Shown here in pieces: positions 8,941-20,605 of a stretch of 21,569 bases of DNA (positions are counted from its first letter, which is position 1; every line of letters begins with the position of its first letter). Source of the stretch: a virus. Where the stretch lies: IMG/VR virus record IMGVR_UViG_3300042924_007338, positions 1-21,569 of that record. The stretch is one strand, 5' to 3'. Position numbers and translations under genes: made by a program. The notes below the pieces were generated by a model. The model saw nothing but the letters and a program-made list of their open reading frames with translations, did no database searches and was not told the origin of the DNA.

Positions 8941-9418
8941 CCTCTCGGCGATTCCCGCGAAGATCCAGGCGCTCGCCGTTGCGGCGGTGACCACGCTCAA
9001 GGGCGTGCAGGCGCACGCCGACATCACCGACCCGGAGTTTCCCGGCGCGCTCTTCCACCGCGGCGTGTCGGTGGGGATCGTGGCCACGGACTACCGCACG
9101 GGCGAGACGGGCATCAACCGCGCGATGACGCCGCGGTACAAGCTGATCCGCGTCGCGGTGCGCGTGGGCTACCTGTTCGGCCGCGACGCGCTCTCGGTGA
9201 GCGCCACGGCGCGCGGGAGCTTCGACGGCGCGAGCATCGACGCGGCCTCCGACCTCGACACGATCGAGGCGGCGGTGACGCAGGCGACCTCGTGGTCGGG
9301 CACGACCCCGGCCATCGTGAGCGTGCGTCGCTCGGGGCCGACGTCGTGCGACCGGATCGCGGAGCTGAACAGGGCGCTGGCGACGGTGTTCTTCGACGTG
9401 GAGGTGAGCATCACATGA
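8933..9418 (+). CDS. Neck or tail-terminator-like protein
   Basis: 161 residues, mixed alpha/beta. A helical N-terminus (IPAKIQALAVAAVTTLKGVQAHADI) is followed by strands such as KLIRVAVRVGYLFG and ATVFFDVEVSIT. A beta-rich protein of this size ending in strands, just before the major tail gene cluster, suits a tail terminator or head-closure protein. No decisive motif is seen. GTG 8933 has GGTGGGG upstream and overlaps the previous gene by eight bases. The stop overlaps the next start as ATGA. Confidence 0.55.
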   Translation: MADLSAIPAKIQALAVAAVTTLKGVQAHADITDPEFPGALFHRGVSVGIVATDYRTGETGINRAMTPRYKLIRVAVRVGYLFGRDALSVSATARGSFDGASIDAASDLDTIEAAVTQATSWSGTTPAIVSVRRSGPTSCDRIAELNRALATVFFDVEVSIT

Positions 9419-9936
9419 GCATCAACGTCCGCAGCAACGTCAGCGCGCTGCGCCTCATGGAGCTGCAGCTCCGTGGCGTGGTCGAGAAGATGGGCGAGAC
9501 GTGGGCGATCGCCTTCGACGGCCCCGCCACGGCCCGTCGTCCCTACCCCACACTGCGCCCGCGCAAGGGTCCTGCGGGCAAGCAGCCGACCAACGCGGAG
9601 GTGTTGCAGTACCTCGAGGCGAGCGGGCGCACGCTCACGAAGCTCGATGCGGCCTTCAAGGCGCGGGCGCTCTCGTACGTGCTGGCGCGCTTCCGCGGCA
9701 AGGCCATCCCGCAGCCGCAGAACGTGATGTTCGCGCTGGCGCCGTTCGTCAAAGAGACCTTCCTCGCGCGCGCCCTGCACTCGGGCGCGGACATCGAGGG
9801 GGAGATCCCGGCGAACAGCGCGGAGTGGACGGAGCGCAAGCGCAAGCTCGGGCTGTCGACGAACAAGATGAAGGCCTCGGGCCAGTTGGCCTCGTGGCTC
9901 AAGGATTCGCGGTTCCGCGTGGTGCGGGTGAAGTGA
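9415..9936 (+). CDS. Neck/head-tail joining protein, HK97 gp10-like by position
   Basis: 173 residues. ATG 9415 overlaps the preceding stop as ATGA; the frame opens further upstream, but that part is only the shadow of the neighbouring gene. The protein is basic, with long helices (MELQLRGVVEKMGETWAIAFDG near the start) and a Lys/Arg-rich C-terminus. The position directly before the major tail protein suggests a head-completion or neck role. No family motif is certain. Confidence 0.55.
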   Translation: MSINVRSNVSALRLMELQLRGVVEKMGETWAIAFDGPATARRPYPTLRPRKGPAGKQPTNAEVLQYLEASGRTLTKLDAAFKARALSYVLARFRGKAIPQPQNVMFALAPFVKETFLARALHSGADIEGEIPANSAEWTERKRKLGLSTNKMKASGQLASWLKDSRFRVVRVK

Positions 9937-9943
9937 GGGCGAG

Positions 9944-11206
9944 ATGACCTGGGAGAACGTCAACAAGCGCAACGGCATCGTGCGGTTCGGTCGTGAGGCG
10001 ACCTTCGGCACGGCGTCGAGCAACATGAAGGCCCTGCTCAACCGCGCCGACCCGCCGTGGCCGCTCGCGGGCAAGACGCAGAAGATGATCGCGCGTCAGG
10101 ACAGCCTGACCTCGCGCCGCGCGTACCAGACGCCGGTGAAGGGGATGAAGAGCGGGAGCCCGGTGGCCCTCGCGGTCGACGTGAAGCCCCCCTCGGGGCG
10201 GCTCAACGCGTCGGCCACGCCGGTGGCGTTCTCGCACGCCGACGCGCTCTCGCACCAGCTCCTGTGGCGCGCGGCGATGGGCGGCGAGCTCACGCCCGCG
10301 GCCGGGTCCGCGGTGGTGAGCGTGTCGAGCGCAGACGTGACGGTGACCACGGGGCACGGCACCCGCTTCGCCATCGGGCAGTGGTTCCTCTACGAGGCCA
10401 CGGGCGGCGGGCTCACGCTGCACCAGGTCACGGGCATCGCGACCGACGTGCTCACGGTGCAGCCTCCGCTCCCGGGCACGCCGCAGGCGGGCGAGGTGAT
10501 CCGCAACCTCTACAACTACTTCCTCGCCGAGGACGACACGCAGACGTTTACCGTCGACCACGCGCCGATCGAGGCCGGGTCGAACGAGGCGCAGTCGCGC
10601 GGTCGGGGCTGCGTGTTCTCGCCGGAGCTCACCCTCCCGCTCGGTGAGGTCCCCATGCTCACCCTCACGGGCACGGCGGCGGACCACGACGGCTTCGGCG
10701 ACCTGTCGCTCTCCGAGACGGCGGTGAGCGACGACATGGCCGCGCCCTTCGCCCTGGACGTGTCCACGGGCAACGGCGGGCTGTGGCTCGCGTCGTCGCT
10801 CTCGAGCACGCCCTCGGCGTCGCTCATCACGGCGGTCAGGCTGACGATCCCGCGGCAGTGGCAGGAGATCCCGGGCGCCGGCGGCGTGTCCTCCCTCGCG
10901 GCGATCAAGGAGGTCGCGAGCCCGCAGCAGCAGATCCAGGTGCAGATCACCCTGCGCGGCGGGACCGCGGAGGTCACTGCGTTCGCGAACATGAGCTCGC
11001 GGCACCTCGTGCTCTTCGGCTTCTCGGGCACGGGCACCTCGGGCCGGGCGTTCCTCGTGCACGTGCCGAACGCGGTCCCCGCGACGCCGCCCACGGTGGT
11101 GCCCGACGGGGAGCTGGCGTTCTGCCAGATGGTCCTCACGGCGCAGAGGAACAGCCTCGCGGCCACGGACCTCGGCTCCTCCAACGTGATCGTGGCGTGG
11201 GGCTGA
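9944..11206 (+). CDS. Major tail protein (tail tube)
   Basis: Predicted subunit of the tail tube, stacked around the tape measure. 420 residues and beta-rich. It sits before a tail-chaperone gene pair and the tape measure, the usual siphovirus order. Around residues 120-175 there is a repetitive beta segment (VVSVSSADVTVTTGHG, then VTGIATDVLTVQPPLPG) that looks like an inserted surface domain. The C-terminal half has alternating strands typical of tube proteins. ATG 9944 lies seven bases after the preceding stop, with GAGGG upstream. Confidence 0.75.
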   Translation: MTWENVNKRNGIVRFGREATFGTASSNMKALLNRADPPWPLAGKTQKMIARQDSLTSRRAYQTPVKGMKSGSPVALAVDVKPPSGRLNASATPVAFSHADALSHQLLWRAAMGGELTPAAGSAVVSVSSADVTVTTGHGTRFAIGQWFLYEATGGGLTLHQVTGIATDVLTVQPPLPGTPQAGEVIRNLYNYFLAEDDTQTFTVDHAPIEAGSNEAQSRGRGCVFSPELTLPLGEVPMLTLTGTAADHDGFGDLSLSETAVSDDMAAPFALDVSTGNGGLWLASSLSSTPSASLITAVRLTIPRQWQEIPGAGGVSSLAAIKEVASPQQQIQVQITLRGGTAEVTAFANMSSRHLVLFGFSGTGTSGRAFLVHVPNAVPATPPTVVPDGELAFCQMVLTAQRNSLAATDLGSSNVIVAWG

Positions 11207-12437: not shown

Positions 12438-14715
12438 CGCGGCATTTCAACGGCAGGTAGCGTCCCTCGCGGACGAGCTCAAGCGCGCGCACGACGAGGG
12501 AGCGCGCATCGGGAGCGGCGCGATCGGCTCCAGCTTCTCGCAGCTCCGCGAGCAGATCGGCGAGGCCAGCGGGCGCGCCTCGCGCTTCGCCGTGGGCATG
12601 GGCGAGGTGACCGCGGGCATTGCCGGGGGCGCCGCCGCCGCGGTTGCCGCGGGTGTGGCGTTCGGGCGTCTCGCAGCCCAGGGCGACCTCAACGCGCGCG
12701 CCGCCGCGGGCGTGGCGGGCGGGTATGACCTCGTCTCGCGTGCGACCATGGGCACGGTCACGGCGTTGAGCGCCTACCGCGCGCAGCAGGCGCTCGTGAA
12801 CTCCGGGCTGCGCGTGTCGGGTGAAGAGCTCGCCTCGGTGGCGCGCCACGCGCGCGAGCACCGGGACGTGACGCAGTCCGCCGAGGAGGCGGTGCAAGAG
12901 CTCACCGAGGCGCTCCGCGAGGGCGAAGAGGGCGGGCTGCGCAAGTACGGCATCGCGGTGCAGCAGGGCGCGACGCGCGCGCAGACCTTCGAGAGCGCAC
13001 TGCGTCAGATGCGCGAGGCGGCGCAGGGGACTGATCCCGCGCTGCGCACGGCGAGCGAGAGCATGGACGCGATGTCCAGCGGGGCGACCGACGCGGTGAG
13101 CGCGCTCGCCTCGCTCGCCTCGCAGGGCCTCGGGCTCAACAACGTCGTCAACAACCTCTCGACGGACATCCGCCGTCTCGGGGACGACCTTACGGAGCTT
13201 GCGGCCCGGCGCGCCAACGCGGAACGCAACGCGAGCGAGGAGCGGGAGCGCACGCGGCTTCTTGAGGACGTGCGGCAGAACCGCGCGAACGTGGCGCAGG
13301 TGCTCCGCGAGCAGGGCATGTCCACGGACCTGCTCCCCGACGCGGGGCTCAGCCTGAACCGCTTGAACGCGCAGCAGCTCACGGAGGTTGCCGGGACCAT
13401 CGCGTCGATCCGCTCCGAGGTGGACGACCTCCGCGCGACCAACGAGCAGACGGTGTTGGAGGGCTTCGCGCGCGCGCGGAACTCTGCGACGGGCGTGCTG
13501 AGTTCGGGCAACCTCGAAAGCGTGGCCACCGGGCTCGGGGCGAACGACGCCGAGCGCGCGGTTGATGCGCTGCGCGCTGCGCGCCGCGGCGCAGACCCCA
13601 ACGCCGCAGCAGATCGGCGGCAGTTGCTTGAGACGCGGCTGCGGTTCCTCTCGGGGCAGATCATGGAGGCGCTCAACCCGGCGAGCCCGCGCGACCGTGC
13701 GGCGGCGCCGACGGAGCCGGAAGCGGCGGCGGCATCGGCCGCGGTGACCGCGAACGACAACGCTGGTCCGCGCCGTCCGACGCTCGAAGATCTCATGGGG
13801 CGGGCGTTCGAGCGGAGCGGCCCCGACGCGGGACAGCCCGCGCCCTTCGCCGGGGAGATGGACCCCGAGCAGCTCGCGGCGACGGCGGAGAAGGAGCGCG
13901 AGACGCGGCAGGCGCTGGCGGACGCGACCAACCGCGTTTCCCCCCTCGACGCCCTGCGCCTGCGCGCCCGCGAGGGACGGCGCGACGCGCGCACGGCTTC
14001 GGAGGCATCCCTCGCCGATGTGCGCGACCCCGCGGTGCAGGCCGAGCAGGCGGCACAGCGCGCCCTCGACACCCAGGTCGAGCGCGAGCGGGCCACGAGC
14101 GAGGAGCGCCTGCGCGTGCAGGAGAGCTTCACGGACCAGTGGGAGCGGCTGCACCGACGACAGGCGAGCGCGACCACGGCCTCGGTGGATATGGCGAACA
14201 GCGCCATCAACAAGTTCGGCGAGAGCTTCGGCAAGCACGTCAACCTGATCATCTCCGGGCAGGAGTCGGTCGGTGAGGGCGTGCTCAACATGGTCCAGGA
14301 GGTCGTGACCGGCATCGGGCAGGAGGCGATCGTCAAGGCCGCGATGAGCACGGCCGAGGGCGTTGCGGCGCTCGCGGGCGTGCTGACGGCGCCCCTCGCC
14401 CCGGGGCACTTCGCAGCCGCGGGTGCCTACGCCGCCGTCGGTGTCGCGGCCCTCGGTGCCGGGGCCATCCTCGGCGCGGCCCGGGGCTCGGGCGGTGGCG
14501 GCGCTGCAGCGGGGACGCCGGCGACCGCGCCCGCGCTCCCGCCCCCGACGCAGCAGGACGCCGAGGCGGCGGGCGGGCGCAACCTCACCATCGTGTACGG
14601 CGGCGGCATCCTCGGAAGTCCGCGGGAACTCGCCCGACACGTGCGCGACGTGCTTGAAGAGGGCGAACAGGCTGGCGTGCGGCTCCCGTCGCGCGTGGTG
14701 GAGCGTGCGGCATGA
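12403..14715 (+). CDS. Tail tape measure protein
   Basis: Predicted ruler that fills the tail tube and sets its length. 770 residues from GTG 12403, chosen for GGGAGG about six bases upstream; the frame is open further up, but without a ribosome site. Seen: Ala/Gln/Arg/Glu-rich helical and coiled-coil composition, an N-terminal Ala/Gly hydrophobic segment (about 69-90), and a strongly hydrophobic C-terminal segment (about 652-695) followed by a Gly/Ala/Pro linker. Hydrophobic stretches near the ends are common in tape measures. By the known rule of about 0.15 nm per residue, the tail would be near 110-120 nm. No lysozyme or peptidase motif is recognised. The stop overlaps the next start as ATGA. 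Confidence 0.85.
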   Translation: MTERVIIEGAVDAAFQRQVASLADELKRAHDEGARIGSGAIGSSFSQLREQIGEASGRASRFAVGMGEVTAGIAGGAAAAVAAGVAFGRLAAQGDLNARAAAGVAGGYDLVSRATMGTVTALSAYRAQQALVNSGLRVSGEELASVARHAREHRDVTQSAEEAVQELTEALREGEEGGLRKYGIAVQQGATRAQTFESALRQMREAAQGTDPALRTASESMDAMSSGATDAVSALASLASQGLGLNNVVNNLSTDIRRLGDDLTELAARRANAERNASEERERTRLLEDVRQNRANVAQVLREQGMSTDLLPDAGLSLNRLNAQQLTEVAGTIASIRSEVDDLRATNEQTVLEGFARARNSATGVLSSGNLESVATGLGANDAERAVDALRAARRGADPNAAADRRQLLETRLRFLSGQIMEALNPASPRDRAAAPTEPEAAAASAAVTANDNAGPRRPTLEDLMGRAFERSGPDAGQPAPFAGEMDPEQLAATAEKERETRQALADATNRVSPLDALRLRAREGRRDARTASEASLADVRDPAVQAEQAAQRALDTQVERERATSEERLRVQESFTDQWERLHRRQASATTASVDMANSAINKFGESFGKHVNLIISGQESVGEGVLNMVQEVVTGIGQEAIVKAAMSTAEGVAALAGVLTAPLAPGHFAAAGAYAAVGVAALGAGAILGAARGSGGGGAAAGTPATAPALPPPTQQDAEAAGGRNLTIVYGGGILGSPRELARHVRDVLEEGEQAGVRLPSRVVERAA

Positions 14716-15557
14716 GTGATCAGCTACGGCCCTCGGTGATGCTGGCGGCGCCGTTCGCGTGGACGAGCGGCGGGACCGACCTCGCGATGACCTTTGCCTC
14801 GGGCACGAGCCCGGTGAACGTGACCGTGGCATCGGGCACGTACCGCGTGCTGCTCTCGACGGCTGCGACGGACCTGCTCGCGGTGCTCAACGCGGCCATC
14901 GCGGCGGCGCTCACGGGCGCGGGCCGGTCGGAGACGATCACCTTCGCGATGAACGCGAACGGCCTCGTGACCATCACGGCGTCGGCGGCGGTGACCATGA
15001 GCGCCCTGCACAGCGGCACGCTCGGCGCGATCCTGGGGTTCACCAGCGGCATCGCCGGGAGCTTCACCACGCGCACGGCCGACCGCATGCCCCGGCACGT
15101 CGCGCTCCTCGCGGGGCAGGCGAGCGGCCCGTGGGCGCCGCGGCGCGAGATGGCCGTCGAGCAGGCCGCGGGCGGCACGACCTACGGCGTGATGGGTGCG
15201 CAGGAGACGCACGAGACGGAGATGGTGTTCTCGTTCATCCCCGACGAACCGGGCGTGACCTCGGACGCGATCACCCCGTGGGCGCCCGTGAAGGCCAACC
15301 TTTCGACGGTGGGGAGCCACACGGGCGTGTGGAGCGTGCGGGACATGCTGCGGCTCGCCATCGGGCAGACCTGGACCTACGCGCACGACTACCAGACCGT
15401 CCGGTCGAGTAGCTCGGAGCGCTTCGACTACGTGACGGTCACGCCCGAGACGATTCGCGCGCCGCGCACCTCGCGCACCATCCCCGACGTGATCCGGTAC
15501 ACCACGTGGACGGCGCGGCTCACAAGGGTGAGCCCGTACACGGGGGTGCGGGCGTGA
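14712..15557 (+). CDS. Distal-tail-type protein
   Basis: 281 residues, beta-rich. The position directly after the tape measure suits the distal tail ring protein that starts the tail tip. Residues ~15-120 have the pattern of a beta domain seen in many phage structural proteins: a GTYRVLL strand, then LLAVLNAAIAAALTG helix, ITFAMNANGLVTITASA strands and GAILGFTSG. The C-terminal half has Trp/Tyr-rich strands (WTYAHDYQTV, RYTTWTARLTRV). The start overlaps the tape measure by four bases and the stop overlaps the hub gene by four bases. The exact family is not certain. Confidence 0.6.
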   Translation: MSDQLRPSVMLAAPFAWTSGGTDLAMTFASGTSPVNVTVASGTYRVLLSTAATDLLAVLNAAIAAALTGAGRSETITFAMNANGLVTITASAAVTMSALHSGTLGAILGFTSGIAGSFTTRTADRMPRHVALLAGQASGPWAPRREMAVEQAAGGTTYGVMGAQETHETEMVFSFIPDEPGVTSDAITPWAPVKANLSTVGSHTGVWSVRDMLRLAIGQTWTYAHDYQTVRSSSSERFDYVTVTPETIRAPRTSRTIPDVIRYTTWTARLTRVSPYTGVRA

Positions 15558-18226
15558 CCGTCGAGCGCATCAACTGGCAGACCGCCGCGTCGCAGGGCGC
15601 GCAGGTCGTGTACGGCGTGCTCATCGCGGGCATCCCGCACCTGCTCGTGGGCGACGGCGTGACGGTGTCCACCGTGGCGTGGACGGACGCGGCCGACCCC
15701 GCGTGGCACGCCGGGACGAGCCCCACGACGCGCCCGTGGCTCGCGCTCGACGAGCTCACGGTGGAGGAGCGCATCCGCCCGATCGACGGCGGGATCGACG
15801 TGTCGAGCATCTCGCTCAAGCTGGCGGACATCGGCGGCGGCGTCACCGCCCTGCTCGGCGCGCGCGACGCCATGGACGTGAGCACGCTCACGACGGGGAT
15901 CACCGCGACGGCCACGAGCATCGGCGTGCGGTCAACGGCGGCGTTCCCATCGTCGGGCGTGCTGCACATCGGCCGCGAGCGCATCACGTACACGGGCAAG
16001 ACCTCGGGCTCGGTCACGGGCTGCACGCGCGGCACGGCTGGCACGAAGGCACGGCGGCACCAGGTCACGCAGGGCTTCGCGCCCCCGCGGGTCTTCGAGG
16101 GCGACGCGCTGCCGTTCACCCTCGGGCGCCGCGTGACGGTGTGGGCGCTGCAGCTCTCGGGCACGACCGTGACGGACCCCACGCTGATCTACGACGGGCG
16201 GGTGGGTCCGGGCACGCGCATGTCGGACGCGGGCGCCGCGTGGGAGATCCCGGTGGACCACGCGAGCAAGGCGCTCGCCGAGGAGACACGGGCGGTCGAG
16301 GTGTACCTGTACGGTTACGGGCACCACATCGCGGGGCGCACAACGACCAACGACGCGAACGACCAGCCGCCGCGGTTCACGCCGCTGTTCGCGCGGTGGG
16401 CCGTGCCGAACAGCGGCGGCGCTGCGATCTATCTGCACAACAGCGCGACCTATCCACACGGGTCGGGCTGGAGCCCGAGCGCGGAGGTGTTCCTCGAGCG
16501 CTGGACCGAGGCCGCGCGTGCGCTCGGCGTGGCGGTGGTGCACGGCGTCGACTCCAACGGCTACTACATCAACGCGGGCGCCTCCCCTGCTCGGCGCCTG
16601 GAAATCACGTGGGCGTGGGGCGAAGGCGGGTCCAACGCGTACCCCGCGAACCCCGGCGACAGCGTCACCAGCGCGCGCGCCTACATGCACACGCCGACCG
16701 AGGCGTGCCTGTGGCTCTACGACAAGATCCGGCTCGACCCGGGCGACCTCGCGCTGATCCCTGCGGCGCCCACGGGCGCGACGGGCATCGCCGCGTCGTG
16801 GGGCCTCGACGTCGAGCGCGACAACGACCAGCTCCCCAAGGCCATGGTGCGCGTGCGCATCGGCGGCGACGACGGCACGAACCTCACGGGCGTGACCGCC
16901 TTCGACCACCGCGGCCTCGCGATCACGGGCACTCTCGCGGGGGAGCGCGCGTTCGGCGCGGAGATCCTGCTCACGAAGCCCACACGCGCGCCGCTGCGCC
17001 TGTACGTGCAGATCAACGCACGCACGGCGGGGTGGTGGGACGCGATCCGCTACGGCGTCATCGAGAGCATCGACACCCTGCGCGGCCTCGACCACGTGCA
17101 GGATTCGCTCGCGTGGGACCGCATCGAGAGCGTCGCCGGGAACTCGCAGCCTTGGAACTGGGAGCGCACGTACTGGATCGCGCCCGAAGAGCCCCCGCTG
17201 CGCGCGCTGCGCGACGAGGCCACGCTCTCCGGGTTGATGCTCTGCACCTGGCGCGCGCGCATCTCCGTCGCGCGCATCCGCGAGCCGTCGACCACGGAGA
17301 CGGCGACGCGCACCATCGGGCAGGCCGACCTTCGCCGGGGGCAGCTCCCGACGATGCGCGAGGTGCGCGACGGGATCATCTCGTCGGTGAAGCTGATCCT
17401 CCCGCCGCACAACGTCGAGAAACCCAACTACCTGCGGGTGATCGACGCCACGGCGATCAGTGAGAGCGGCGCGGGCGCGGAGATCACCGCGCGCGTGGCC
17501 GAGGGCGCGATGCGCGGCGGCGAGGACCCGCGCACGAGCCCCTCGATCCGCACCGCCGTCGAAAACATCGCGCTCTCCCTGCTCACGCCCTGGACCCGGC
17601 CTTACCGCCTCGTGACGGTGCCGACGGACCTGCGCGCGGCCGACGTCGAGGTCGGCGACGTGATCGCCCTGGACGAGTGGCTGCTGCCCTCGGGCACGGG
17701 CACGCGCGGGATCAGCGGGCGCGGCGTGGTCGTGGGGTGGCGCAAGTCCTACACCACCGGCCGGGTGGACCTCATGCTGCGGGTGGCGCCTGCTCGGGCC
17801 GGGTGGGCGCCTGCGTACGCCGTGAACACCATCTCCGGCGCGGTGCTCACCCTCGACAACCCCTACCCGACGGGCCCCGCAGGCTTCGGCACGGAGTACA
17901 CCGCGACGGGGGCTCTGCGCACGGACTTCGGCCTTGAGTCACTCTCGCCGGGGCACAAGATGCGGCTGGTCGAGGTGGGCAACCGCTCGCCGGCGACGCC
18001 GCTGTCGGTGGAGGTCTTGAGCGTCGACGCGGGCGCGGGCACGGTGACGCTGACGGCGTCGCCCGGGGCGTCGTGGGAGACGCTCGCGACCTCGAGCTAC
18101 GGCAAGGTGTTGCTGATCCCCGAGACGCACGCGAACAGCCTCACGGCGCAGCGGCGCTACGTCTACGTGGCCGACGGGTCCAGCGTGACCTTGAGCACGG
18201 GCGATCCGGCGCGGACGTGGGTTTAG
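15554..18226 (+). CDS. Tail hub / tail-tip attachment protein
   Basis: Large structural protein of 890 residues at the tail tip, probably the central hub that the distal ring and fibres attach to. GTG 15554 overlaps the previous stop as GTGA and has GGGGGTG upstream; the longer frame from 15506 lies inside the neighbour. Seen: around residues 135-160 a conserved-looking structural motif, GVLHIGRERITYTGKTSG with GCTRGTAGT, which I know from other phage tail proteins. A middle part is rich in Trp, and C-terminal beta repeats follow. No glycosidase or peptidase motif is recognised. The stop overlaps the convergent lipoprotein stop by four bases. Confidence 0.7.
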   Translation: MTVERINWQTAASQGAQVVYGVLIAGIPHLLVGDGVTVSTVAWTDAADPAWHAGTSPTTRPWLALDELTVEERIRPIDGGIDVSSISLKLADIGGGVTALLGARDAMDVSTLTTGITATATSIGVRSTAAFPSSGVLHIGRERITYTGKTSGSVTGCTRGTAGTKARRHQVTQGFAPPRVFEGDALPFTLGRRVTVWALQLSGTTVTDPTLIYDGRVGPGTRMSDAGAAWEIPVDHASKALAEETRAVEVYLYGYGHHIAGRTTTNDANDQPPRFTPLFARWAVPNSGGAAIYLHNSATYPHGSGWSPSAEVFLERWTEAARALGVAVVHGVDSNGYYINAGASPARRLEITWAWGEGGSNAYPANPGDSVTSARAYMHTPTEACLWLYDKIRLDPGDLALIPAAPTGATGIAASWGLDVERDNDQLPKAMVRVRIGGDDGTNLTGVTAFDHRGLAITGTLAGERAFGAEILLTKPTRAPLRLYVQINARTAGWWDAIRYGVIESIDTLRGLDHVQDSLAWDRIESVAGNSQPWNWERTYWIAPEEPPLRALRDEATLSGLMLCTWRARISVARIREPSTTETATRTIGQADLRRGQLPTMREVRDGIISSVKLILPPHNVEKPNYLRVIDATAISESGAGAEITARVAEGAMRGGEDPRTSPSIRTAVENIALSLLTPWTRPYRLVTVPTDLRAADVEVGDVIALDEWLLPSGTGTRGISGRGVVVGWRKSYTTGRVDLMLRVAPARAGWAPAYAVNTISGAVLTLDNPYPTGPAGFGTEYTATGALRTDFGLESLSPGHKMRLVEVGNRSPATPLSVEVLSVDAGAGTVTLTASPGASWETLATSSYGKVLLIPETHANSLTAQRRYVYVADGSSVTLSTGDPARTWV

Positions 18227-18705
18227 CGCCGAGGGAATGCAGTAGTCACAACGTCGATGGCGCCCACGGCGTCCTGGGCCGTGTCGTCGAACCATGAGGC
18301 TCTGACGGTCCACGTCGTGCGGACCACGATGGACACCGCGCCGCCCTGCGACTCGCCAGAGCGAAACGCCAAATCTCCCGTGTAGACTACGCGGCTGGCT
18401 GCGGGGTCGGTGGCGACGCGGCACGTGTTGAAACGGGAGTCGCTCGCGACGATTGCGCCCGTCGTCACGTTCACCTGCGCGAAGCAGCTCGACGTGATGC
18501 TCATGGAGGGAGACGACCGCGAGAGGGAACGCTCGAAGCCCTCAATGCGCTGAGTCAGTGTGGAGCACATCCCCGCGGGGAGTCCAACGCACGAAACGAC
18601 CCGCGACGTGTGAGCCCACTGCTCGGTGTCCGCCCACTGGAGCGGGCCGCTGTTGCAGGCGACGAGCAGGGTCAGCGTGGCGAGCAGGGCGGCGAGTCGG
18701 GTCAT
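18223..18705 (-). CDS. Lipoprotein moron, candidate superinfection-exclusion factor
   Basis: 160 residues, the only convincing minus-strand gene in the window. Seen: a signal peptide with basic start MTRLAALLATLTL and lipobox LVAC, with lipidated C17 followed by Asn-Ser, so not an inner-membrane Asp+2 signal. Four more cysteines (C39, C47, C74, C95) could form two disulfides, and the C-terminal half is beta-rich. The ATG at 18705 (minus) has a strong GGAGG ribosome site. It faces the tail hub gene tail-to-tail, with stops overlapping at 18223-18226. The DNA is visibly less GC-rich than its neighbours. Known parallels are phage T5 Llp, a lipoprotein encoded beside the receptor-binding gene that blocks the host receptor, and other lipoprotein exclusion factors. 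That role here is inference; a plain lysogenic-conversion surface protein is equally possible. Confidence 0.75.
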   Translation of the reverse strand: MTRLAALLATLTLLVACNSGPLQWADTEQWAHTSRVVSCVGLPAGMCSTLTQRIEGFERSLSRSSPSMSITSSCFAQVNVTTGAIVASDSRFNTCRVATDPAASRVVYTGDLAFRSGESQGGAVSIVVRTTWTVRASWFDDTAQDAVGAIDVVTTAFPRR

Positions 18706-18751
18706 GGGGGCACCTCCGGTGCGCGTGACCCTACGTCGACGTCCCCGGGCG

Positions 18752-18784
18752 GTCACACGATTTGGCCCTCTGCCCCGCTGTGAC
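18752..18784. promoter_or_regulatory. Inverted GTCACA/TGTGAC pair in the divergent promoter region
   Basis: GTCACA (18752-18757) and TGTGAC (18779-18784) are perfect 6-base inverted arms with a 21-base gap. They lie in the 93-bp region between the lipoprotein start and the plus-strand gene at 18799. The right arm overlaps the start of motif site C. This could be a control site serving both directions. Confidence 0.35.
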
Positions 18785-18794
18785 ATATCCTGTC
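18782..18794 (+). promoter_or_regulatory. GACATANNCTGTC motif, site C
   Basis: GACATATCCTGTC, identical to site D and preceded by T. Only four bases separate it from the ATG at 18799, so no ribosome-binding site fits between them. If TATCCT (18786-18791) acts as a -10 element, transcription would start at or next to the A of the start codon, giving a leaderless message. Confidence 0.65.
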
Positions 18795-18798
18795 CACC

Positions 18799-19506
18799 AT
18801 GAGCGTGCTCGGGAAATACCTCCCCCACCCGCCCGCAGGCTCGGGCTCCTGGGGTGACGCGGGCGAGCCCCTCGACGCCGGGCGGTGGACGATCCTGCGG
18901 CAGAGCGCGGTATTCCTCGCGCAGGCCAACGCATCGCGGCACCTCGCGGAGCACAACGGCTTTCGGGGGATCTACCGGCCGGCGATCGGCGGCACGTCGT
19001 TCACCGACCCGCCCGCGGTGCAGCAGATCCCGGTGATCTACACGCGCAAGACCGGGGGCTCGTTCCTCGACTTCGGCGTGCACTGGTTCCACCCGGCCGT
19101 GCTCGGCGAGACGTCGCCCACGGTGATTGCGCCCTTCGGCACGGTGGTTCTGCGCGCCCGGTGGAAGGTCGCGGGCGGCTACACCCTCGGCGTGGTCCTC
19201 GGCGCGAGCGCGGGCACGGGCGGGCCACACGCGGCGCAGACCGTGGGGACGGCGCAGTCCACGACCACGAGCGCGACATGGGCCGACCTGACGCTGACGC
19301 TGCCCCTCACGGAAACGAACACCCTCGAGGTCGACATGCGCCCCGCGGCGGGCGCGAGCGCGCTCCCCGACAACTACCAGCGCGGGCGCCTGCGATACGC
19401 GCGGCTGTTCTTCGGCGCGTACTGCTCCTCGGACATCGACACCGTGGGCACGCGCGGGCAGGTCGTGAACATCAGCGTGCACCTCGCGGGCACGAACGGG
19501 ACGTGA
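18799..19506 (+). CDS. Tail-tip or receptor-binding type protein
   Basis: 235 residues, family not recognised. The N-terminal ~50 residues, with LDAGRWTILRQSAVFLAQANASRHLAEH, could be a helical attachment segment. From about residue 100 on it has alternating strands (TVVLRARWKVAGGYTLGVVLG, then WADLTLTLPLTETNTLEVDM) typical of a jelly-roll or carbohydrate-binding-like domain. The position after the tail hub suggests a tip or fibre role. Only site C precedes it and there is no Shine-Dalgarno site. The stop is one base from the next ATG. Confidence 0.6.
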   Translation: MSVLGKYLPHPPAGSGSWGDAGEPLDAGRWTILRQSAVFLAQANASRHLAEHNGFRGIYRPAIGGTSFTDPPAVQQIPVIYTRKTGGSFLDFGVHWFHPAVLGETSPTVIAPFGTVVLRARWKVAGGYTLGVVLGASAGTGGPHAAQTVGTAQSTTTSATWADLTLTLPLTETNTLEVDMRPAAGASALPDNYQRGRLRYARLFFGAYCSSDIDTVGTRGQVVNISVHLAGTNGT

Positions 19507-19507
19507 G

Positions 19508-20605
19508 ATGACGCAGATTCAGCACCAGAACCGCGGGCGCCCGACGATCCCCGAGCAGAGCCCGCGCATCGGCGTCCCGCCAACGGCGGCGGAGATGCTG
19601 CAGCACGCCGACTGCATCAACGGCGCGAGCCTGGACGACCACGCGGGACGCTTCGGCACGTCGGAGATCCTCGACACCGGCACGTTCACCTGGAGCTACA
19701 CGCGCACGGCGCAGGCGCGTTACCTCTGCGTGCGCGCGATCATCGCGGCGACCGCGCCCGTCACGACCCCGGGCACCGACACGGTGACGCTCGACCTCAC
19801 GCTCTCGGACGGGACCAACACCCTCGCGAGCTCGTCGTCGAAGCTCCCCCGCGGTTGGAAGGGGGAGACGCACGTGTCGCCGCTGGCGTACCTCGGGGGC
19901 AGGCACGACGGGCTGCACGTCACGGGCTACGTCGACCTCGACGACGTGGACGATGACCTGACGGCCGGGAGCGACTGGTCCATCACGGTGGTCGTGACCA
20001 TTGCGGGCGGCGCGCAGGTCCAAGTCTTGAGCGCCTGGGAGGTGCCCGGCTTCGCCATCGACGACGACGTCCCAGGCCGCGGCGTGCTCGTTGGGAACTA
20101 CAGCAGGGACCGCGAGATCGTCGACACGCCCCTCGGCTGCGAGCAGCTCATCACCCAGGACGATTACGCCGTGACGCAGCAGCGCACGATCCTCTCGACG
20201 GCGTGGCGGCAGCAGGTCGCCGACAGCACCGAGACGCCCTCGTGCGCGTCGACCAGTTACGGCGCCGTGAGCCTGCTCGATGAGGGCGGGAGCGTGGGGC
20301 ACTTCCGCACCATCGCCCGCGCGCTCCCGACGCCTGGCGCTGACGTGCCGATCCGGTTCCGCGTGCTCTACCGCATGACGGGCGGCACCACCGAGACGGG
20401 ACAGGTGCGCATCAACACGGGCGCGACCGGGGGGCCGTGGGCGACGGCATCGCTAGCCTACACGGCCTCGTGGACGTGGAGCGCGTGGGTGACCGCGGCG
20501 CACCTCTCGGGCGCCGACGAGACCACCATCGAGGCCAAGGTCAGCGCAAGCCCCGCGGTGCTGTGGATCGCCGCCATCGCGGTGATGGAGGCGTGCGCGC
20601 CCTAA
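19508..20605 (+). CDS. Beta-rich tail-tip or receptor-binding type protein
   Basis: 365 residues, family not recognised. The N-terminal part TAAEMLQHADCINGASLDDHAG is a short helical region. It is followed by two beta-rich halves: residues ~55-185 (TDTVTLDLTLSDGTN, DWSITVVVTIAGGAQVQVLSAW) and ~255-365 (VPIRFRVLYRMTGG, then TIEAKVSASPAVLWIAAIAV). The C-terminal half has a strand pattern like that of the previous gene product, hinting at a shared jelly-roll type fold; this is weak. ATG 19508 follows the previous stop after one base, so both genes probably share a transcript starting near site C. Confidence 0.6.
   Translation: MTQIQHQNRGRPTIPEQSPRIGVPPTAAEMLQHADCINGASLDDHAGRFGTSEILDTGTFTWSYTRTAQARYLCVRAIIAATAPVTTPGTDTVTLDLTLSDGTNTLASSSSKLPRGWKGETHVSPLAYLGGRHDGLHVTGYVDLDDVDDDLTAGSDWSITVVVTIAGGAQVQVLSAWEVPGFAIDDDVPGRGVLVGNYSRDREIVDTPLGCEQLITQDDYAVTQQRTILSTAWRQQVADSTETPSCASTSYGAVSLLDEGGSVGHFRTIARALPTPGADVPIRFRVLYRMTGGTTETGQVRINTGATGGPWATASLAYTASWTWSAWVTAAHLSGADETTIEAKVSASPAVLWIAAIAVMEACAP

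Follow-up and report, generated by a model that had tools for sequence, protein, structure and literature searches.

The locus examined here raises the question of why a phage would keep a lipoprotein gene among its tail-tip genes, on the strand opposite to them, and whether the product could guard the host cell against related phages. The DNA that was analyzed, hereafter the window, is a 21,569-base IMG/VR virus record (IMGVR_UViG_3300042924_007338) with 72% GC and a siphophage-type module that includes genes for the large terminase, portal, scaffold and major capsid protein and a tape-measure-like gene. The preliminary description of this sequence had read the gene at 18223-18705 (minus strand) as a possible receptor blocker, comparable to Llp of phage T5, and had suggested that it could define a new family of exclusion lipoproteins.

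Relatives of the phage were identified by terminases 69-100% identical to that of the window. One of them (G004, terminase 98% identical) is a provirus with an integrase, lying beside tRNA-Gln and a bacterial thymidine phosphorylase gene, and another (G009, 87%) carries an integrase and a repressor. The window ends before any lysogeny genes, so the term temperate rests on kinship; through these integrase-bearing relatives, the window phage appears to come from a temperate group. Compared with its counterparts in MAGs, the thymidine phosphorylase beside the G004 provirus shows 65% identity to one from a Myxococcales MAG and 33% to one from a proteobacterial MAG; the host is probably a member of the Myxococcota (myxobacteria). 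At positions 1-2404 of the G004 locus L023, we found the provirus end at tRNA-Gln(ttg) and the thymidine phosphorylase gene, together with a tyrosine integrase; this end is likely the attachment site of the phage group. In the window itself, positions 1896-2186 hold direct and inverted copies of GTTTGGGGAGGATGGGGAG / CTCCCCATCCTCCCCAAAC, clustered in a GC-poorer stretch 5' of a small-terminase-like ORF, and this cluster may serve packaging or replication instead of coding for protein.

A minus-strand lipoprotein gene among tail genes

In the tail module, the gene at 14712 has counterparts in relatives, and the tail hub or baseplate-like gene (15506-18226, plus strand; its start may be 15554) was recognized by a PHROG baseplate/tail match and by its family of homologues, with a counterpart in every relative compared. 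It is followed on the plus strand by two tail-tip genes, A (18799-19506), which in relatives without an insert comes straight after the hub gene or overlaps it, and B (19508-20605), and the order hub-A-B is conserved. A or B would presumably act in receptor binding. The lipoprotein gene lies between the hub and A, as the preliminary description had placed it.

The gene encodes 160 aa beginning with MTRLAALLATLTLLVACNSG. Its first 16 residues (MTRLAALLATLTLLVA; 18658-18705) form a signal peptide that fits a PROSITE-type lipoprotein rule, and the lipobox LVA|C puts the lipid-modified cysteine at residue 17 (codon at 18655-18657), with Asn at +2 and four further cysteines in a mature protein of 144 aa. 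A Shine-Dalgarno sequence, GGAGG (18713-18717), stands 7 nt 5' of the ATG at 18705. GC content is 66.9%, compared with about 72% for the phage DNA, and GC3 in this frame is 0.84 (about 0.95 in the neighbours), with 0.58 and 0.59 at the other two codon positions. The codon score of +0.15 is the highest of the six frames; the phage's own genes score about +0.55, and the low value fits recently acquired DNA. The frame stays open up to 19482, so ORF length alone is little proof of a gene. However, the strict pattern of an ORF of at least 100 aa with a PROSITE-type lipobox, K/R near the start and a Shine-Dalgarno sequence appeared in only 3 of 3000 dinucleotide shuffles of the region, and no alternative plus-strand gene fits between 18227 and 18798. 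Hence, the stretch 18223-18705 is a real gene, and by composition it looks imported. It is the single convincing minus-strand gene in the window, where the genes of the siphophage-type module, from the terminase to B, are all on the plus strand. The ORF, the LVAC|N motif and the coding signal thus bear out a lipobox protein with four more cysteines, and the opposite strand, the GC-poorer DNA and the separate ribosome site were likewise described correctly.

At its 3' end, the gene meets the hub gene tail-to-tail with the two stop codons overlapping by 4 bp (18223-18226), which leaves no room for a terminator. At its 5' end, a divergent intergenic region of 93 bp (18706-18798) separates its ATG from gene A and presumably holds the promoter. 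Scanning for promoter and terminator consensus sequences gave no sites and no sigma-70-like promoter, with a model that may not fit Myxococcota promoters. The spacer contains an imperfect palindrome, CGCGTGACC-N20-GGTCACACG (18722-18759), which is operator-like and could be an operator; it has one match in the window, for a pattern chosen after the palindrome had been seen, and no copy in the other loci compared.

Searches for relatives of the protein gave no credible match in Pfam, PHROGs, NCBIfam, PADLOC or the PDB; one PDB match to a transporter (E 0.05) was dropped because it covers the hydrophobic start. No relative was found by 8-mer scans of IMG/VR and GTDB or among the 18 records found via the terminase, and the best E value against phage records by tblastn was 0.8. 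Across 318 genomes from the class to which G198 (one of the prophages described below) belongs, the best match (E 8e-4) was partial or interrupted and was judged to be due to chance. Two AlphaFold runs on the single sequence gave pLDDT of 43.5 and 38.2, too poor for use, and a fold search with the first model returned noise only. Hence, the suggestion of a new family finds no support, as these searches produced no second member, and the protein appears at present to be one orphan.

The hub/A junction in relatives

A profile of the hub found homologues in three IMG/VR contigs and in Myxococcota genomes, and the hub belongs to a divergent family shared by Myxococcota prophages and IMG/VR contigs. 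Hub-like matches in G168 and G233 were dropped as short stretches of other proteins, and one in G303 was dropped as weak and located in a much longer protein. Nineteen loci were compared at the junction, 18 of them with a hub complete enough for a tree. Gene calls came from a home-made caller based on GC3 and lipoprotein calls from a motif rule, both applied alike to prophage and host DNA.

We found the junction between the hub and the next gene empty in 12 of the 19 loci, mostly with the two genes overlapping or touching (-4 to +8 bp). The distant relative G014 keeps the order hub-A-B, and its junction is a 103-bp stretch devoid of genes; the lipoprotein gene is absent there in G014 and eleven others, and hub-A-B order is kept wherever A and B are recognized. 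Further downstream in G014 (L021, 7998-10160), a lysis-like region encodes a small lipoprotein, a HELGH-motif protein, an M15-like peptidase and a transglycosylase-like protein, and a PHROG search matched none of them.

The other seven junctions hold an insert, and six of these inserts are lipoprotein genes (the window, G198, G375b, G544, G029 and L052). In the first five, the lipoprotein is encoded on the minus strand, and its stop is offset from that of the hub by -4 to +1 bp. The sixth, in L052, lies on the plus strand and was read by six-frame translation (MRYALALALALGC...); a minus-strand ORF called there first was rejected as its mirror. Opposite orientation is thus not essential, the L052 lipoprotein being co-directional with the hub. 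The remaining insert, in G392, is a 62-aa non-lipoprotein. By the identical rule, 39 of 289 host genes drawn from two genomes (13.5%) are lipoproteins, compared with six of seven inserts (p = 6e-5), or five of six without L052, which was added by eye; this and the other tests were picked after the pattern had emerged, on a small number of loci.

Lipoproteins also occur elsewhere near the hub. An automatic count gave 10 lipoproteins among 93 genes at positions -2 to +3 relative to the hub and 0 among 133 genes further upstream (p = 1e-4). Four more loci carry them away from the junction: two lie 5' of the hub in L050, one lies 5' of the hub in G375a with another, of borderline lipobox, after B, and minus-strand lipoproteins stand further on, after later genes, in G363b and G510. 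The two genes of L050, an IMG/VR contig, are adjacent and unrelated (9281-9589, minus strand; 9662-9976, plus strand), just 5' of the hub. G375b, which lacks gene A, is an atypical element. In its locus (L134) and that of G392 (L132), the hub gene lacks the preceding tape-measure-like gene typical of other hubs and comes after small genes, in G392 also terminase-like genes, with a minus-strand gene at each hub end; the two may be phage satellites or remnants in which a hub has been retained.

On a maximum-likelihood tree of the hub, filled junctions are scattered and do not cluster, and they require six changes, at least five of them forced by well-supported branches. The cargo sequences are mutually unrelated except for a marginal match between those of G198 and G375b (E 0.02). 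Mature lengths range from 81 to 215 residues, and extra cysteines from 2 to 18. One of ten proteins tested had a sub-threshold Pfam match and the others had none, and the G198 protein is an orphan among 184 genomes of that prophage's order. With filled junctions scattered and the cargo unlike, lipoproteins have arrived or been replaced at the junction repeatedly, which suggests that the hub/A junction is a slot for swappable lipoprotein cargo.

Possible functions of the junction lipoproteins

The window gene is extra, missing from relatives, has colinear flanks and deviates in composition, as a moron would. We read it as a lysogenic-conversion moron at the hub/A junction that serves, most plausibly, superinfection exclusion, and we give this reading an even chance of being right. 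Exclusion is favored because the position matches that of lambda lom and N15 cor, because T5 llp adjoins the receptor-binding gene pb5 and its product jams FhuA (PMC9586334), and because the lipoproteins of mEpimmI phages sit in the structural cluster and the types tested exclude (PMC11893012). Counting against it are the orphan status of the window protein, its size, which is larger than that of Llp or Cor, and the inclusion of the atypical G375b among the six lipoprotein inserts.

Under this reading, the moron would be transcribed on its own, against the late operon, and the prophage would make a lipoprotein that the host lipidates and places in its envelope; by the E. coli rule, Asn at +2 argues against retention in the inner membrane. 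There the lipoprotein would interfere with the adsorption or DNA entry of related phages, perhaps by binding to the receptor that the adjacent tail-tip proteins use, in the way that Llp and Cor act on FhuA. Because no gap separates the stops of hub and lipoprotein, late transcription of the tail operon would run antisense through the lipoprotein gene; the protein is therefore expected in the lysogen and would be switched off in lytic growth. With the gene placed next to the hub, blocker and adhesin would stay linked through recombination of the tail-tip genes, and the fast turnover of the cargo would be the result of arms-race selection.

The main rival is a general role in lysogenic conversion, in which the lipoprotein brings another host benefit (a surface, nutrient, stress or predation trait, as with lambda Bor) and the junction may be merely a site where insertions are tolerated. 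We consider this possible but on the whole unlikely. The cargo is unrelated and varies widely in extra cysteines, as expected of random draws from a lipoprotein-rich host, and with 13.5% of sampled genes in these hosts encoding lipoproteins, cargo of this origin could serve any purpose in the envelope. The junction is also not unique, given the lipoproteins encoded just ahead of the hub in L050 and G375a and beyond later genes in G510 and G363b. However, free entry predicts about 13% lipoproteins among inserts rather than the six of seven observed, and no lipoprotein is encoded by the 133 genes that lie farther upstream in the structural modules sampled. This bias speaks against mere tolerance of insertions at the site, but leaves room for envelope functions other than exclusion.

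Three further explanations were weighed. Some phages encode lipoprotein spanins, and the G014 lysis region includes a small lipoprotein; yet an outer-membrane spanin or a lipidated virion part is improbable for a gene that is opposite to the late operon, absent from most relatives and outside the lysis cassette. Its product lacks the C-terminal membrane segment of a unimolecular spanin (the best 19-residue hydropathy after residue 20 is 1.08), and its likeness to the G014 protein is limited to a 25-aa stretch (E 0.018). With hosts in the Myxococcota, a SitA-type kin-discrimination lipoprotein also comes to mind, that is, a prophage-borne toxin that moves from cell to cell when outer membrane is exchanged. 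The sitAI cassettes, which are frequent in Myxococcus prophages, encode lipoprotein toxins (PMC10047993). The 572-bp gap fits one gene only, with no neighbouring immunity gene, and domain searches of the window lipoprotein found no toxin domain, so we hold this to be very improbable. That the stretch is not a gene, only an open frame in GC-rich DNA opposite a spacer, could be argued from the modest codon score and from the long ORFs that arise by chance at 72% GC. The joint rarity of lipobox, Shine-Dalgarno sequence and ORF in shuffled DNA, high GC3 in the right frame and the identical geometry in four other prophages (G198, G375b, G544 and G029) make it extremely improbable.

Extending the preferred reading of a superinfection-exclusion moron beyond the window, we tentatively propose that temperate phages of Myxococcota have a hypervariable slot at the hub, filled repeatedly with unrelated lipoproteins that would block the receptor of the neighbouring adhesin, and that the terminator-less convergent layout would tie their expression to lysogeny. 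The earlier view of the gene as a receptor blocker thus gains from the finding of a precisely inserted, foreign lipoprotein gene and of recurring unrelated lipoproteins at the same junction in related prophages, and loses the idea of a new family. To our knowledge, most phage lipoproteins known to block receptors come from coliphages. A junction that repeatedly collects unrelated lipoproteins would let exclusion proteins be recognized by their genomic position when sequence searches miss them and, if the slot reading is true, would be a locator for many such proteins and for phage receptors in a phylum with few characterized phages. It also makes a testable general idea of a blocker kept beside the adhesin so that both move together.

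Comparison with known systems

The comparison with T5 Llp drawn in the preliminary description is apt, and lambda, N15, T5 and mEpimmI phages all show similar placement. The Cor lipoprotein of N15, phi80, T1 and others acts in FhuA exclusion. Like the window gene, cor is a small lipoprotein moron beside a tail-tip gene, and in N15 it lies between the tail-tip and tail fibre genes (tail tip-gp22-gp23-cor-tail fibre). However, the window lipoprotein does not align with N15 Cor; the Cor precursor has 78 aa compared with 144 aa for the mature window protein; and the window gene is opposite to the tail genes, belongs to a phage of another phylum of hosts and has a putative role in exclusion.

With Llp, the window protein shares the place of its gene beside a receptor-binding gene, a role that is putative for A or B. 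The structure of Llp has been deposited (PMC9586334), and the window protein has no PDB match to it at E up to 1. T5 is lytic, and Llp is far smaller than the window protein and has a known receptor, FhuA. By sequence, the protein is not a member of the Cor/Llp family, having neither an alignment with N15 Cor nor a PDB hit to Llp; a lipoprotein signal and a tail-tip location are both present.

Of 48 mEpimmI phages, 40 encode lipoproteins in the structural cluster; these fall into four sequence types, and the two types that were tested excluded phages grouped by receptor (PMC11893012). The likeness lies in the presence, inside the structural gene cluster of a single group of phages, of several unrelated sequence types; in contrast, the mEpimmI types have many members and two were shown to exclude, whereas the cargo of the window group is essentially unique in each case and known from sequence. 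In lambda (J-lom-tail fibre), the outer-membrane moron lom directly follows the hub gene J and precedes the tail fibre gene, as the window gene follows its hub. Its product is annotated as an outer membrane protein rather than a lipoprotein, is encoded co-directionally and has no similarity to the window lipoprotein.
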